From: Verrucomicrobiota bacterium
GTDB lineage: Bacteria; Verrucomicrobiota; Verrucomicrobiia; Limisphaerales; PALSA-1396
Reading direction: 5' to 3'
Assembly (NCBI GenBank): GCA_016200005.1
Contig: JACQFP010000047.1
Span: 124,001 to 188,000, forward strand
Length of the DNA stretch: 64,000 bases
A model generated the notes under the pieces. The model saw only the letters and a program-made list of their open reading frames with translations. It was not told the DNA's origin and made no database searches. Below are positions 33,542-64,000 of the stretch, in pieces; within the stretch, counting starts at the first letter, position 1, and every line of letters begins with the position of its first letter. Made by a program: the position numbers and the translations under genes.

Positions 33542-34687
33542 TTACTCCTTCTCTCCCGGCTTCAAAAAGAGAATTTCCCAACGCGATTGCCCGCGCGCGA
33601 AGAGTCGTGCCACGCGCCCAGCCAGTTTGTCGGTCTCGTGTTTCGATCGGTCCAGACCGAGCACCTGCGGATACCAGGCCAGCTTGTCCTCGGCCAGCGG
33701 GATTTTTTGAGGCGGTGACCAGCCCGACGGATTGCGCAAGTCGCGGTTGAATGTGACGTAGATGCCTTCCTGGGTCCAACGGCTGTCTTTGGCGCGGTTC
33801 AACAGAATCACGTATTGGCGTAAATGTGTGTTCCAGTGAATGGACGGTCCCCAAGGCGCATCGGCATCCGCCCGATTCCAATCGGTCGTCACCTGAAAAA
33901 CCGGAGTCACATGCCCGCCAAGCCCTGGCTCGCGCCACTGGCGGTCATGCCACTTCCAAACCTTTCCCACGGGCTGGTCACGGTCAGCCCACCGCATCCG
34001 CGCCACGGCCACTCCCTGCTCGGGGACATTCTTCGGATAATTGCTGAAGAAGAAATAGAGAAACTCCTTCTTCGCATCGAGCATCACGGAAAAATCGCCG
34101 TTCCCGCCGGCGAAGTAATAATTCTTCGTGTCGCACTTGAGCATGTCAGGCGGCGCTTCCAGCACAATGCCGAGGTCGTGCCACGTCGCGCCGTTGTCGC
34201 TGGACTTCACCGCGCCGATTCTGGGTGCCGTCAGGTTCATCTTGGGCGAGTCCGGATGCGCGCCTGGACAGATGCCAGTCGGCTCGAAGTGATACCAGCC
34301 GTAAAGCGTGCCATCCTCGACCTTCCACGTGCACTCAATCCAGCGCCCGCCGCTGGCTTTGTTGTCGTATTCGCAACGCACGTAATTTGTCTGAATATGG
34401 AAGAGGTCGGGACCGGAGCTGCGCCATGGGTGCCCGGCGGAATTGAAGACGTAAAGCGTTTCGCCGTCCCAATGCGCCGGGTTGTTGCAGTCGCACTCGC
34501 CTGGCTTGTCCGGGCTGGCGCTGTTCGCGCCGCGGAACTGGACGGGTGGTGCTTCGCGCAATTTCACCACCAGCGTTCCCGCTTCGCGTTTGGTGGCAGT
34601 CGGTGATTGGCAGCCCAACAAGACAACCAGAGTCGCCGTGGAACTCAGCCGCAACGTTACCCGAAACAGGGGGCGTATCTTTGGCAC
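33542..34687 (-). CDS. Lipoprotein with propeller-like domain (paralogue A)
   Basis: The 381-residue protein starts MPKIRPLFRVTLRLSSTATL with lipobox VLLGC (Cys 25). The body has recurring strands (DGETLYVFNSAGHPWRSSG, SGGRWIECTWKVEDGTLYGW, FAGGNGDFSVMLDAKKEFLY, YVILLNRAKDSRWTQEGIYV), as in five-bladed glycosyl-hydrolase-type propellers; there is no decisive active-site triad. It is clearly homologous to the first 350 residues of the protein at 36408 (GWYHNEPGGLCPG versus GWYHFEPTGICPG; WKWHDRQWREPGLGG versus WKWNNGDWQEPGLGG), which is encoded on the other strand. Probably an outer-membrane-anchored or periplasmic sugar-related protein. Confidence 0.72.
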   Translation of the reverse strand: MPKIRPLFRVTLRLSSTATLVVLLGCQSPTATKREAGTLVVKLREAPPVQFRGANSASPDKPGECDCNNPAHWDGETLYVFNSAGHPWRSSGPDLFHIQTNYVRCEYDNKASGGRWIECTWKVEDGTLYGWYHFEPTGICPGAHPDSPKMNLTAPRIGAVKSSDNGATWHDLGIVLEAPPDMLKCDTKNYYFAGGNGDFSVMLDAKKEFLYFFFSNYPKNVPEQGVAVARMRWADRDQPVGKVWKWHDRQWREPGLGGHVTPVFQVTTDWNRADADAPWGPSIHWNTHLRQYVILLNRAKDSRWTQEGIYVTFNRDLRNPSGWSPPQKIPLAEDKLAWYPQVLGLDRSKHETDKLAGRVARLFARGQSRWEILFLKPGEKE

Positions 34688-35020
34688 GAAAACCTTCGTA
34701 ACCGTATTGGCAAATTATTGCAATGTAACTTTCTGCGCGTCAAAGGCGGAAAACTCTGCCCAAGCGAGGCGAGCCGAAAAGAGTAGTGCCGACAGTGGCC
34801 CCGTCGTGAAAATGGGGGTGATGTTGATCAGAGTTGCTGTCGCAAACGCGGAAACTTTCCGACCAATTCCGGAAAGTCCAATCCAATCATAATTATTCTT
34901 GACAAGGTTGCAAGGGGCTGGAGATTAAGCACGCATAGCTTTTCCTTCCAAACCATAGCTTTGGCACAGACGGATGCTGCGCTGAACTCTTGCACAAACT
35001 AAAATCTCAGAAAGGTTATT
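34688..35020 (+). other. Intergenic region upstream of two divergent secreted-protein genes
   Basis: A 333-bp gap between the divergent lipoprotein and the jelly-roll genes. It contains no coding signal I can recognise. A TTGACA box at 34899-34904 followed after 17 bases by AGATTA (34922-34927) is the best promoter-like feature; the -10 match is weak. Confidence 0.45.
34899..34927 (+). promoter_or_regulatory. Possible sigma-70 promoter for the jelly-roll gene
   Basis: TTGACA (34899-34904) is a perfect -35 box, with a 17-base spacer and AGATTA as a poor -10 box. It lies 94 bases before the ATG at 35021. Inference only. Confidence 0.3.
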
Positions 35021-36298
35021 ATGAAGAACATGACAATTCTTGCGATGGCCGTCAGCCTTGGCCTCGCGTTTACCCCAAAGGCTCAGGCTTGGTTTGCCTA
35101 TCTTGATGGCTCGGCGCTGCCGGAAAGCCCTCCGTGGGTAACAAACTTTTTCAATGAAGGCAGCACGGTGGTTGTGGACATCGGCGGTGGTAACTTCGCG
35201 TTGGAGATGGACTCCCCGTTCCACACGCTTGCCGAAGATCCCCACAAGTCGGGCAATTTCTATAACGAGTATTACATCAACTTCAGCGGCGACTTGGAAA
35301 AGGTCGGCGCCACGCGCTTCCGATTGGCTGGATTCACCCCCACTGGCATGGAAAACATCTTGTCGCCTTCCACACCTCAGATCTCGCCCGGCATCGTTGT
35401 CTCGAACGGCCAATTCTGGGTGTGGAGCATGATCAATGATGCGCCGATCTTTCACCTCGGGCCGGCGGTGACCAATGAATGGCACACGGTTTACATCTGG
35501 ATTCGCCCCGACTACACAGCCCGTGTTATTTGGGACGGCGTGACTGTGTTCGACGGGACGGTCGCCGACGACAATCCGGCCTACGGTGGCTACATGGAAT
35601 TTGGCAGCGGCACCTATTGGGAAACGGACGCCGGCACCACAGTGGATTTCGATTGGGTCGGTTGGGGCGATGCCAGCGATCTGCCGCGCCCAACTCTCTC
35701 CATCGCAAGCGGCGGAAGTGTCGTGCTCTCCTGGTCAACCAACGATCTTGGCTTCGTTCTCCAATGCACTGCCAATCTGACATCAACCAATTGGGTCAAC
35801 GTGACCAATGCTGTCAGCGTGGTCGGCACGCAATACACGGTGACCAACGCAACCACCGACCTGGCCAAATACTATCGCCTCAGCGCGAGACCCCTGGCAT
35901 TCTTGGAAGCCACTGTCACTTTTGATGACGCGCCGACTCCAGCCGAGAATATCCCCAGTCCTTATAATGGATTGGACTGGTCCGCGGCGTGGTTTTATGA
36001 GAGCGATGCGTACGGGGGCTTCGGCCCTCAAGCCTATCTGGATCCGGCCGGCGGTACCACCGCCACCATCTCAGGTGGAGCCGGTGGAGCATTTTTGCTC
36101 AAGAGCCTGCTCGCGTCAGGAAGCGGTACGCTCAGCCTGACCAATAACGGTGCTGGCGAGTCAGCTAGCTTGGTGCTTGGCGCCTCCCCCGCAATGCTGA
36201 CGACCGGCTGGACCAATCTTTCGACCAGCGTGGATGTGACCTCGACCACCGGGTTCGCCGACTTTCCGGCCATCGACGACATCAGGTATCGCCGGTAA
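35021..36298 (+). CDS. Secreted jelly-roll protein with shared C-terminal module (paralogue B)
   Basis: The 425-residue protein begins MKNMTILAMAVSLGLAFTPK, a signal peptide. Residues about 25-220 form a LamG/concanavalin-like domain (AWFAYLDGSALPESPPWVTN; VTNEWHTVYIWIRPDYTARV; YMEFGSGTYWETDAGTTVDF). Residues about 228-295 are the shared module (VLSWSTNDLGFVLQCTANL, then TNWVNVTNAVSVVGTQYTVT and YYRLS). A C-terminal domain of about 130 residues follows (GGTTATISGGAGGAFLLKSL), resembling a further beta-sandwich. The first two parts are homologous to the C-terminal half of the protein at 36408. Probably extracellular, sugar- or surface-binding. Confidence 0.7.
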   Translation: MKNMTILAMAVSLGLAFTPKAQAWFAYLDGSALPESPPWVTNFFNEGSTVVVDIGGGNFALEMDSPFHTLAEDPHKSGNFYNEYYINFSGDLEKVGATRFRLAGFTPTGMENILSPSTPQISPGIVVSNGQFWVWSMINDAPIFHLGPAVTNEWHTVYIWIRPDYTARVIWDGVTVFDGTVADDNPAYGGYMEFGSGTYWETDAGTTVDFDWVGWGDASDLPRPTLSIASGGSVVLSWSTNDLGFVLQCTANLTSTNWVNVTNAVSVVGTQYTVTNATTDLAKYYRLSARPLAFLEATVTFDDAPTPAENIPSPYNGLDWSAAWFYESDAYGGFGPQAYLDPAGGTTATISGGAGGAFLLKSLLASGSGTLSLTNNGAGESASLVLGASPAMLTTGWTNLSTSVDVTSTTGFADFPAIDDIRYRR

Positions 36299-36407
36299 CG
36301 ATGCGCGAGGCAACTTGGTGCACTTCATCTGAACGGCGTGGCAAACCTGGGTGGGTGACCGCCACGGCGGGACTTGCGCTGGAACAGGCGGTGACTTTTT
36401 CTTCAGC

Positions 36408-38273
36408 ATGTTCAAAATGCCCAATTTCAAAGAAACGCTATCAATGCTGACCGCACTCGTTGCTGCGACTGCATCCGCCCTTCCGCCCACGCTGCGACCT
36501 GCCTCTCATTTGCAGTTTCCACATGCCACGGATTCCAACAGTCCCGGGCACTGGGATGGCCCGACGTTTTACCTCTTCAACTCGACCGGCCATCCCTACC
36601 GCAGTGACGGCAGCAACATTTTTTCTTTGGGCAACACCGCCGCGGTGACGTTCGACAATACCGTCAACGGCGGACGCTGGATGGAAGCCACGTGGCGCGA
36701 TACGAACGGCACTCTGTACGGCTGGTATCACAACGAGCCGGGCGGCCTCTGTCCGGGCACGAGCTTGACGGCGCCGAAGATCGGCGCGGCCAAATCCACT
36801 GACAACGGAGCGAACTGGATCGATCTCGGCATTGTTTTGGAAGCCCGTACCAACACGCTGCGCTGCGATGCGCAGAATGGATATTTCGCCGGCGGCAACG
36901 GCGATTTCAGCGTCATGCTCGACGCTGCACAACAGTACCTTTACTTGTTCATCAGCACCTATGCCGGCGACGTAACGGAACAAGGCGTTGCGATTGCCCG
37001 CATGGCTTGGAGTGACCGCGATGTGCCGGTGGGCAAGGTTTGGAAATGGAACAACGGCGATTGGCAGGAACCGGGTCTCGGCGGTCTTGTGACACCGATA
37101 TTCCCCGCGACCGTTGCTTGGGAGCGGGCGGACTGCGAGGCGTTTTGGGGACCATCAGTCCATTGGAACACCTATCTTCAACAATACGTCATGTTGTTGA
37201 ACCGCGCGAAAGGAGCCGGCTGGATACAAGAAGGCATTTATATCAGTTACTCGACCAATCTCGCCGACCCGCTGAACTGGTCCGCGCCGGAAAAAATCCT
37301 GAACGGTGGTGCGTGGTACCCGCAGGTCATCGGGCTGGAGCAGGGTCCGGGAACGGACAAGTCGGCGGGGGCCTTGGCCCGGTATTTCCAGGGCGGCGTC
37401 TCGGATTTTGAAATCTGCTTTGCACCGTCTGGCTGTCCGCCCTCGCCCTGTCTGTGGAATCAGTTCCTCGACGGTTCGAGCCTGCCCGCATCGCCGTGGT
37501 TCTTCTATCAGACAGGAGGCACAGAAGGTAGCACGTCAATCGTTAACTTTTACGATCCGGACATTGGTGGGACGAATCACGCCCTGCGGATCAACTCCGG
37601 CGCGAATTCCACCGAATGGTATCTCGGACCACTTTTCACGGATGAAGTTGTCGCCGCCGCGCGGTTCAGAACCGTTGCGTTCTCCGGTACGAGTGCGGAG
37701 AATTTACTGTGCGCCGAAGTTGGCGGATCGGGTGACCATTGCGCCGCGCCGGCGATTACCATCGTGACCAATCGTTACAAACTGTGGAGCTACACAGAAG
37801 GGACCTTTGGCTCAGGGACAGGCGGCAGCCAGATTCTGGATATTGGCCCAGTGCTGTTGGACCAGTTTCACACGGCATACATTTACGCGCACAAGAGTGG
37901 TCTGATCCGGCTTTGGTGGGACGGCAAACTGATCTTTGACGGGTTGTCGCCGATGGTTCCCAACTATGACGGCTTTATGGAGTGGGGAAGCGGCTCGTGG
38001 CAGTTTACCGCCGCAACCACCGTGGACTTCGACTGGGTCGGCTATGGCAACGCATGCAATCTTCCCCAACTGCTGAGAATCACCCATTCCGATAACTTCA
38101 TCGTTATCTCGTGGCCCACCCAGGCAGTCGGTTTTGTGCCCCAGTCAACTGAAATTCTCGCCCCCGCAAATTGGATGGATATGACCAACACCGTCAGCGT
38201 GGTTGGTTCGGAAAACACCGTCACAAACGACTTGCCAGATACGGCCAGATTTTTCCGTCTGCGTAAACTCTGA
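36408..38273 (+). CDS. Chimeric secreted protein: propeller domain plus jelly roll plus shared module
   Basis: The 621-residue protein starts MFKMPNFKETLSMLTALVAA, a signal peptide. Residues about 30-340 match paralogue A at 33542 (GRWMEATWRDTNGTLYGWYH; FAGGNGDFSVMLDAAQQYLY). From about residue 355 it matches paralogue B at 35021 (FLDGSSLPASPWFFYQ; YDGFMEWGSGSWQFTAATTV; DFDWVGYGNACNLP), ending with the shared module (VISWPTQAVGFVPQSTEIL, NWMDMTNTVSVVGSENTV) and FFRLRKL. It therefore joins the two neighbours' architectures in one polypeptide. The longer frame to 36351 lacks a signal peptide at its start. Probably secreted or surface-bound. Confidence 0.72.
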   Translation: MFKMPNFKETLSMLTALVAATASALPPTLRPASHLQFPHATDSNSPGHWDGPTFYLFNSTGHPYRSDGSNIFSLGNTAAVTFDNTVNGGRWMEATWRDTNGTLYGWYHNEPGGLCPGTSLTAPKIGAAKSTDNGANWIDLGIVLEARTNTLRCDAQNGYFAGGNGDFSVMLDAAQQYLYLFISTYAGDVTEQGVAIARMAWSDRDVPVGKVWKWNNGDWQEPGLGGLVTPIFPATVAWERADCEAFWGPSVHWNTYLQQYVMLLNRAKGAGWIQEGIYISYSTNLADPLNWSAPEKILNGGAWYPQVIGLEQGPGTDKSAGALARYFQGGVSDFEICFAPSGCPPSPCLWNQFLDGSSLPASPWFFYQTGGTEGSTSIVNFYDPDIGGTNHALRINSGANSTEWYLGPLFTDEVVAAARFRTVAFSGTSAENLLCAEVGGSGDHCAAPAITIVTNRYKLWSYTEGTFGSGTGGSQILDIGPVLLDQFHTAYIYAHKSGLIRLWWDGKLIFDGLSPMVPNYDGFMEWGSGSWQFTAATTVDFDWVGYGNACNLPQLLRITHSDNFIVISWPTQAVGFVPQSTEILAPANWMDMTNTVSVVGSENTVTNDLPDTARFFRLRKL

Positions 38274-62193: not shown

Positions 62194-63152
62194 AACAACT
62201 TGTTGTCACGATCTTCGCGGCGCTCATTCTTCACGGCAGTCTCTCCTTGGCAGACGGTCTGAAGCTCGAGACGGTTGCGCTGCCTGCATTGCGAATCAAC
62301 GGACAGGCGGCCAGGGCGCACACGCAGGGACTGGAAATCGCGGCCGGCAAATATTATGTCACCGCGCGTCGGGAGGACGTCCGGCCGAGGCGCGCATTGC
62401 TGCTGCGAACCGAGCCAGCCGGAACGAACTGGGATGTCTGGGACATCACATCTGTTGACGCCGCTGGAAAGGTGATGGCGCTGGATCATCCCGGCGGAAT
62501 GCAGTCGGACGGGAAGCGTTTGTGGATTCCAGTTGCCGAGAGCAAACGTCATGGGCGCAGCCGCATTTGCGTTTTTGCTCTGGAGGGCATGGTGGCCGGC
62601 AAGCCGCTGAAACCGGTATTTGAGTTCTCCGTCAACGATCACATCGGCGCGCTGGCGGTCGAGAGCGGGCACGGGTTGGTGTTCGGCGCAAATTGGGATA
62701 CGGAAACGGTTTATGTTTGGGACCTCGAAGGTCGCCTGAAACGGACGTTGACCGGTGCCGAACTCAAGGCGCGCGACTTGGGCGTGGTCACCAGCGGTGA
62801 GGTCCGTGCGGGTGTCGCGGTTCAGGATTGGAAGGTTGTTGGCGATCGCCTCTTTGCCTCCGGCCTCTTTCGCGCGCCTGAATCGGTCAAAGTGTCGCCG
62901 AAAAGCCGCTGGATTTCCTTCGCCAATTTTTTGGAAACGGATTTCCAGCGCAGGATTTGCTTTCCACCTTTGCAGGACGGAGTCGAGCTCGCGCGTGAAG
63001 CCATGGCCGTTTTTGACGGTCTGGTTTATTTCCTGCCTGAAGATTTGGGTGCCCGCAACCGGCTCTTCCGCGTCGCTCTGGCGGACCTCCTGAAACGTGG
63101 CGTGGCTAAGGAGGCCCGCGCTTCGCAGAATCAGGGACGCATCAGCCGGTAA
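62190..63152 (+). CDS. Secreted propeller-like protein (DUF6454-like)
   Basis: The 320-residue protein starts MKQLVVTIFAALILHGSLSL, a signal peptide. The body has repeated four-stranded blocks (TQGLEIAAGKYYVTARREDV, WDVWDITSVDAAGKVMALDH, PGGMQSDGKRLWIPVAESKR, VFEFSVNDHIGALAVESGHG, GLVFGANWDTETVYVWDLEG), which fit a six-bladed propeller. Function unknown. ATG 62190 is supported by the ATGA overlap with the lipoprotein gene; the earlier frame from 62064 lies within it. Its 3' end overlaps the convergent neighbour by 22 bases. Confidence 0.7.
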   Translation: MKQLVVTIFAALILHGSLSLADGLKLETVALPALRINGQAARAHTQGLEIAAGKYYVTARREDVRPRRALLLRTEPAGTNWDVWDITSVDAAGKVMALDHPGGMQSDGKRLWIPVAESKRHGRSRICVFALEGMVAGKPLKPVFEFSVNDHIGALAVESGHGLVFGANWDTETVYVWDLEGRLKRTLTGAELKARDLGVVTSGEVRAGVAVQDWKVVGDRLFASGLFRAPESVKVSPKSRWISFANFLETDFQRRICFPPLQDGVELAREAMAVFDGLVYFLPEDLGARNRLFRVALADLLKRGVAKEARASQNQGRISR

Positions 63153-64000
63153 AAGCTATTCCCCGCCAACGGCGGAAGTATGACCTGATTGTTGGTGCCC
63201 ACGACAGTAACGGCGTTGGTCACGTCGTTCCAGTTGGTGGTGCCGAGCCTGAAGTTTTGTTGGAGCACGAAGCCACTGGAGTTGGTCGGCCAGGTGAGGG
63301 CCATCGCGTTGCTCTGCGGCATTGAAACCGACAGCCACGGCACGGCGACAAAATTGGCAACCAGCGAGCGGTTCAAGATATTGGTGAACTGGTAGCTGGA
63401 CGCACTGCTCACGACGGTGTCGTTCTCCGTCCAGTTGACAAACTTGAACCCGGCGTTCGGCGCGGCGGTGACGGTCGCCGTTGTGCCGTTGGTATAAACG
63501 CCATCGCCGGTACAGATGCCGCCGTTGGTGGGTGAAGCGGTCGTGTCCACGGAACTGTGTGGCGGCAGGACTTCGTTCGCGGCCGCGACGATGATTGGAT
63601 ATTTTTTCGTGAGGACCGGATTGTTGCTGGCGGTGGCAGTGACCGTGAGCATGAATACGCCGGCTTCGTTCGGTGTGCCATAAACCCAGCCCGTGGCAGG
63701 ATCGAAGGCCATTCCGGCGGGCAGATCGCCGGAACTGGTTGCGGTGAAATTTGTGTCACTGGCAATGACCAGGCTGCGGGTAGGATACTCAACCCCAACC
63801 TCACCGTCGGGGAGATGATCGATCAATCCGATGGGTGGCGCCGCTACCATGGCCGACATTTGTGCGCCCAGGAATTTGCCGACGACTTCGACCGTTGAGA
63901 GGTCAATCGGATCCCCATTGCCGTTCGTATAAACTCCAACCCCATGAATGCCATCCGGCGCGACTCGTTCCGCCATCGCTTGATGCGTGTCCCAGTCCGC
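63131..64000 (-). CDS. Secreted Ig-like/repeat protein with shared C-terminal module (5' end missing)
   Basis: The frame is open past base 64000, so only the last 289 residues are visible. They contain a putative-Ig (He_PIG-like) domain (VGVEYPTRSLVIASDTNFTA, DLPAGMAFDPATGWVYGTPN), an InlB-B-repeat-like domain (TVTAAPNAGFKFVNWTENDT) and the shared module at the end (ALTWPTNSSGFVLQQNFRL, TTNWNDVTNAVTVVGTNNQV, then FYRLMRP). It is the closest relative of the module copy at 35021. Probably an extracellular protein of the same class as those in 33-38 kb. Confidence 0.75.
   Translation of the reverse strand, partial: ADWDTHQAMAERVAPDGIHGVGVYTNGNGDPIDLSTVEVVGKFLGAQMSAMVAAPPIGLIDHLPDGEVGVEYPTRSLVIASDTNFTATSSGDLPAGMAFDPATGWVYGTPNEAGVFMLTVTATASNNPVLTKKYPIIVAAANEVLPPHSSVDTTASPTNGGICTGDGVYTNGTTATVTAAPNAGFKFVNWTENDTVVSSASSYQFTNILNRSLVANFVAVPWLSVSMPQSNAMALTWPTNSSGFVLQQNFRLGTTNWNDVTNAVTVVGTNNQVILPPLAGNSFYRLMRP

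Follow-up and report, generated by a model that had tools for sequence, protein, structure and literature searches.

We analyzed a 64,000-nucleotide stretch of DNA (the window) from contig C47 of the 6.54-Mb genome G000 of a Verrucomicrobiota bacterium (GenBank assembly GCA_016200005.1), in which three neighboring open reading frames (ORFs), designated A, B, and C, encode predicted exported proteins with domains in common. Gene C is a real and, so far, unique fusion of an ordinary kind, joining a five-bladed propeller to a jelly roll and a C-terminal tail module, and its propeller is of nonlocal origin. We consider it probable that C is secreted and acts on glycans and that it was assembled from three independently circulating modules. 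Its propeller would come from a family mostly encoded as stand-alone proteins, its jelly roll from a module also attached to other putative exoenzymes of the order, and its tail from a set that dozens of the order's secreted proteins have in common. The original prediction, made from the letters of the window, had instead attributed C to local duplication followed by recombination.

Domain structure of proteins A, B, and C

The three ORFs were located within 5 kb of each other, with A on the opposite strand, as originally described (Table 1). Pairwise comparison bore out the claim that C is a fusion of A-like and B-like regions. Residues 19 to 378 of A aligned with residues 10 to 342 of C, with 192 of 360 positions identical (53%; E = 6e-131 in a single comparison), and residues 19 to 287 of B aligned with residues 345 to 618 of C, with 109 of 292 positions identical (37%; E = 6e-47). 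Alignment of the proteins, which had been proposed as the means of finding the fusion point, placed the join between residues 342 and 346 of C (about 37434 to 37440 in the window). The described anatomy of lipid-anchored, secreted, and combined proteins was also real. Inspection of the sequences by eye detected the lipoprotein signal of A as a lipobox-like LLGC with Cys26, and similar sites were present in loci L028, L029, L046, and L051; B and C had N-terminal hydrophobic stretches and no lipobox. The region common to B and C, described earlier as a jelly roll plus module, was homologous as stated and could be refined to two modules, the jelly roll and a tail of ∼68 residues that occurs genome-wide. 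Beyond the tail module, the last ∼135 residues of B (35888 to 36295, plus strand) matched nothing in Pfam or NCBIfam and were missing from C. Scanning the region for promoters and terminators yielded nothing usable.

Table 1. Genes and modules of the window (window coordinates; aa, amino acids)
Feature	Position	Strand	Basis
A: predicted lipoprotein, 381 aa, stand-alone five-bladed propeller (residues about 40-381)	33542..34687	-	ORF, model, lipoprotein relatives
B: predicted secreted protein, 425 aa: signal peptide, jelly roll, internal tail module, ∼135 further residues	35021..36298	+	ORF, homology to C
Jelly-roll module of B	35075..35674	+	Homology (G000:C47:159075-159674)
Tail module within B, 137 residues ahead of stop (unusual position)	35678..35884	+	Profile match
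C: predicted secreted fusion, 621 aa: signal peptide, propeller, jelly roll, C-terminal tail module	36408..38273	+	ORF, homologies
Propeller domain of C, residues 24-342	36477..37433	+	Homology, trees
Jelly-roll (concanavalin A [ConA]-like) module of C, residues 345-550	37440..38057	+	Homology, model
Tail module of C (residues 551-620), one residue ahead of stop codon	38058..38267	+	Profile match
Further tail module copy, C terminus of unrelated ORF (in-window part 63131-63976)	63140..63325	-	Profile match

Phylogeny and distribution of the propeller domain

Propeller trees were built after omission of 15 loci (the fragments L034 and L084, the copy from the window itself, and repeat retrievals of a contig), and a 27-row tree was obtained by the further omission of five long-branch rows (L032, L033, L050, L066, and L083). 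The matches G907:C73 and G944:C257, from the phylum labeled Armatimonadota, had no locus and stood outside these trees. In the 27-row tree, a clade of A and 14 others excluded C with a support of 98/95. Constraining A and C to be sisters gave a log likelihood that was 31.9 worse, and this arrangement was rejected by the approximately unbiased (AU) test (p-AU = 0.00023). Evidence independent of the tree model came from three indels that were common to A and five verrucomicrobial stand-alone lipoproteins and were all missing from C, namely, a ten-residue insertion before the invariant Asp66, one residue near position 102, and extra residues before Trp338. All or part of the insertion before Asp66 also occurred in L079 and L082, so that it is not unique to the Verrucomicrobiota; a shorter one was present in L083.

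A was closest to stand-alone lipoproteins of its own order (63 to 66% identity, four genomes), and the propeller of C was up to 66% identical to stand-alone proteins of the Armatimonadota-labeled phylum and 53 to 58% identical to A. The AU rejection, the indels, and these closer relatives elsewhere indicated that the propellers of A and C are not local duplicates. The C propeller branches outside the group of A and the verrucomicrobial lipoproteins and so was probably acquired separately, either by horizontal transfer or as an ancient paralogue, and was not copied from A.

Propellers were detected in 7 of 146 genomes of the order, at nine places: seven stand-alone-sized frames (390 to 495 aa, A included), C, and one frame running into a GH127 enzyme (G053). 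The C query matched 20 of 201 genomes of the Armatimonadota-labeled phylum at 23 places, comprising 21 propellers in frames of 317 to 393 aa, one jelly roll, and one fragment. Two of 246 genomes matched in the phylum labeled Planctomycetota, and among 387 genomes sampled across the phylum to which the window belongs, only G000 itself matched. The jelly roll was absent from every fetched propeller frame except C, so that the fusion of propeller and jelly roll is known only from C. It had been argued beforehand that no local shuffling would be needed if the separate and fused forms were each old and widespread; the separate propeller form was both, but the fused form was found only here.

Purely vertical descent, with A and C carrying ancient paralogous propellers that were lost in most lineages, is in our estimation a rather doubtful alternative. 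The tree rejects a recent duplication and not an ancient one, and two different propellers also occurred together in genome G128 and in two genomes of the Armatimonadota-labeled phylum. The distribution just described is very patchy, however, and vertical descent would therefore require many losses.

Other propellers of the order were also noted. In L034 (G053:C100, positions 2 to 2203), the end of an A-family propeller was in frame with a GH127 beta-L-arabinofuranosidase-like enzyme, the start of the propeller lying beyond the contig end. A very divergent, long-branch type of propeller was present in two genomes of the order (L033, 9091 to 10575; L032, 5450 to 6655) and was nearly identical between genera (branches of 0.01 and 0.11), which suggests recent transfer.

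Relatives and origin of the jelly roll

G000 encodes four jelly rolls, those of B and C and two on contig C22. Among these own-genome matches, the jelly roll of C was 56% identical to C22:227247, 53% identical to C22:136072, and 39% identical to B; the ranges across comparisons were 53 to 57% for the C22 copies and 37 to 43% for B. Relatives of the C jelly roll with 48 to 60% identity were found in six further genomes of the 146 in the order. The C22 genes and their relatives join the jelly roll to other large domains (frames of 1040 and 517 to 595 aa), for which no Pfam assignment above the cut-off was obtained in those scanned, and a stand-alone jelly roll of 250 aa was present in the Armatimonadota-labeled genome G532. 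Another architecture (L036, 8442 to 10223; L037, 5656 to 7407; L038 to L041), seen in the same genus and in four genomes that belong to a different family, is a protein of ∼520 to 595 aa that ends in the jelly roll and whose middle domain is unassigned; in the L036 copy, a tail-type module also lies close to the N terminus. When two jelly-roll proteins were used to search solved structures, nothing useful was returned.

The proposal that the jelly roll of C derives from B survived only in part. The C jelly roll was nearer to the C22 genes than to B, but a clade of B and C was not rejected, with a p-AU of 0.10 with an outgroup and 0.31 without one. These were small trees from which the duplicates L052 to L054 were left out, as was L063 in the tree without an outgroup. 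The B+C clade escapes rejection because B lies on a long branch (1.19 to 1.5), the longest among the verrucomicrobial rows. This branch length and the AU results would agree with a half-local origin, in which the propeller came from elsewhere and the jelly roll and tail of B and C are a local duplicate pair of which B diverged fast, as would the fact that B adjoins C and has the same order of jelly roll and then tail. The C22:227247 gene has this same order, however, and the adjacency of B and C is thus not needed to explain it; given also the higher identities of the C jelly roll to the C22 copies and to other genomes, we regard a half-local origin as unlikely.

Dating of the duplication by synonymous distance, which had been suggested, could not be achieved because the synonymous sites were saturated, with dS values of 1.69 for A-C and 2.83 for C-B and infinite values for three other comparisons with C. 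The corresponding dN values were 0.36 for A-C, 0.24 for A-L046, 0.28 for C-L067, 0.61 for C-B, and 0.37 for C and the C22 copy. A wholly local origin, in which an adjacent duplicate of A was joined to duplicates of the B jelly roll and tail, would account for the domains shared by three genes within 5 kb, for their nonrandom clustering, and for the unrejected B+C clade but is highly improbable given the rejection of an A+C propeller clade, the indels joining A to other Verrucomicrobiota to the exclusion of C, the closer similarity of both the jelly roll and the tail of C to a C22 gene than to B, and the lack of any blastn match (word size 7) among the A-B, B-C, and outer A or C flanks.

A tail module found throughout the order

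The tail was searched for with a profile of seven copies, matches being accepted at an E value of 0.001 or better. There were 57 matches in G000, and of the 58 genomes searched in the order, 55 had the module. As a consequence of these 57 occurrences, the similarity between B and C is partly one that is common to dozens of genes. The module comprised ∼68 residues and ended in FYRL/FFRL-K/R just before the stop codon. It was situated 0 to 3 residues before the stop in 20 of 21 matches within 20 fetched G000 regions (L091 to L110) and in 19 of the 20 best matches from other genomes (L145 to L164). The exception, L161 (G020:C310), was a tandem array of at least three tail copies running off the end of the stretch. 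The tail of C was 54% identical to the C22:227841 copy and 42% identical to that of B. Most carriers had a hydrophobic N-terminal stretch, as judged by eye and by hydropathy, and they included propellers of the RCC1, NHL, SBBP, DUF5122, and sortilin types.

The tail was internal in B and near the N terminus in the C22:136072 gene and is therefore not solely a terminal signal. None of the seven copies had a Pfam or NCBIfam match above the cut-off, models of the C-terminal domain (CTD) and of PEP-CTERM included. The tail resembles the CTD of the type IX secretion system (T9SS) and PEP-CTERM in its terminal position on otherwise unrelated signal-peptide proteins and in its many copies per genome; it differs from them in having no such match and no linked secretion machinery here. 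A search for SprA, the T9SS translocon, matched none of the 58 genomes, and the control genomes gave no match either. The tail was poorly modeled, with a predicted local distance difference test (pLDDT) score of about 30, and no fold is claimed. The module is probably a surface-sorting or anchoring domain.

Predicted folds and similarity to known enzymes

The propeller and the jelly roll were modeled separately. The model of A (ma0f82ddbc90f) was a five-bladed propeller, with blades counted from DSSP, a mean pLDDT of 82.6, and a predicted template modeling score of 0.83, and its best solved matches were enzymes of glycoside hydrolase (GH) families GH183, GH159, GH43, GH62, and GH32 (Z scores of 19 to 21). 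A total of 27 polar or aromatic positions, including D66, E118, H133, E135, D198, and E307 (A numbering), were kept in at least 31 of 32 propeller members. All 27 were kept in both A and C, making a similar chemistry of the two plausible, and the model suggests that the propeller is probably a catalytic, glycan-active domain. Genes near one stand-alone propeller of G128 encoded a sulfatase, a 3-keto-disaccharide hydrolase, a DUF4832 protein, and a protein of BNR_2 plus ConA-like type, but also a gamma-glutamyltranspeptidase and a ceramidase-like protein.

The best structural match of the A model was EndoMA1, a GH183 endo-D-arabinanase (PDB 8hhv; Z = 21.5, 3.6 Å, 273 residues, 10% identity). 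Its published description (PMC10509167) gives a five-bladed propeller followed by a sugar-binding beta-sandwich and a GH183 catalytic set of Asp33, Asp51, and Glu243. C has the same succession of propeller and beta-sandwich binding domain, and this is how it would work. The predicted A model shares the five-bladed fold of GH183 (DUF4185, PF13810), but assignment to the family by score was rejected, as A had no hit and C scored 20.7 bits (21.9 in the genome search) against a gathering cut-off of 39.5 bits. An hhalign comparison of the propeller with six DUF4185 proteins of the order gave a probability of 6 and an E value of 0.0062 and was collinear over 223 columns. Of the positions presumed equivalent to the GH183 catalytic set, D66 was invariant and E307 was present in 31 of 32 members. 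Under the same presumed equivalence, GH183 differs in that no near-invariant Asp or Glu occurred at A residues 67 to 117, where the Asp51-like acid/base would be expected. GH43, GH62, and GH32 resemble A in the five-bladed fold and the invariant Asp (A66) early in blade I, and Asp66 is presumably the counterpart of the GH43 base; Pfam hits to these three families were not obtained.

The jelly-roll model (mda66822c98ab) was of moderate quality, its mean pLDDT being 66.7 with the tail and about 65 to 90 in most blocks of residues 11 to 210. Its best match was the lectin domain of Vibrio cholerae sialidase (Z = 16.7, 2.6 Å over 175 residues; model residues about 10 to 207), and the predicted fold was that of a ConA-like lectin or carbohydrate-binding module. 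No named carbohydrate-binding module family could be assigned by sequence, as Pfam gave no hit for B and, for the C jelly roll, none that reached the cut-off; the L036 protein matched PF21340 (Cip1-like) at an E value of 0.029, below the cut-off. The jelly roll is probably a carbohydrate-binding module. No kinship with toxins is suggested by the Foldseek matches to clostridial neurotoxin binding domains, which were 5 to 13% identical and reflected the general ConA-like fold. Sialidases of the V. cholerae and trypanosome type resemble C in pairing a propeller with a ConA-like domain, and a GH33 profile matched over an Asp-box stretch with an E value of 0.00036 across only about 88 positions. 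Sialidases have six-bladed propellers. With five blades and one Asp-box-like stretch in place of six blades and several Asp boxes, the propeller did not qualify as a GH33 sialidase.

Discussion

These analyses point to C as a protein of three modules with separate histories. Following export by Sec, the jelly roll would keep C on a polysaccharide, the propeller would act on the bound polysaccharide, and the tail would fix or sort the protein at the cell surface. A would carry out the same activity while anchored to lipid, B would bind but lack the propeller, and the three genes may serve a common purpose.

Several observations weigh against this reading. The only two propellers of G000 share a 5-kb stretch with two of its four jelly rolls; by our arithmetic from their positions in a 6.5-Mb genome, the chance of such clustering is ∼0.001 and ∼0.004, and the reading accounts for it solely by assuming selection for co-location. 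The jelly-roll clade of B and C withstood the AU test in the small trees available. The deep placement of the C propeller was modestly supported, and its branch was longer than that of A (0.52 to 0.54 versus 0.30); transfer from an Armatimonadota-like source is consequently only a suggestion. The direct neighbors of other stand-alone propellers were often not carbohydrate related (a gamma-glutamyltranspeptidase and a metallo-beta-lactamase fold protein), and the activity, ligand, and surface location of C are predictions only.

A more far-reaching interpretation is that the tail is a previously unmodeled C-terminal sorting or surface-anchoring domain found across this verrucomicrobial order, borne in each genome by dozens of secreted proteins that are otherwise unrelated and so marking a dedicated route of export or anchoring, in which case C would be an enzyme domain imported from another phylum and dressed with the tail and a binding module. 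We put this forward tentatively, as a possibility that falls short of an even chance. An open-access literature search found no description of the propeller family, the C fusion, or the tail.

The findings correct a tempting inference, since neighboring genes with common domains need not be local duplicates. They also bring to light, in uncultivated bacteria, three families of modules for which there is no curated model: the C-terminal tail, the ConA-like module, and the five-bladed propeller, which occurs in several phyla. The tail is a better lead than the C fusion and merits a study of its own. If it is a sorting signal, the secreted and surface proteome of the order would be predictable from sequence, and the machinery that reads the signal could be searched for.

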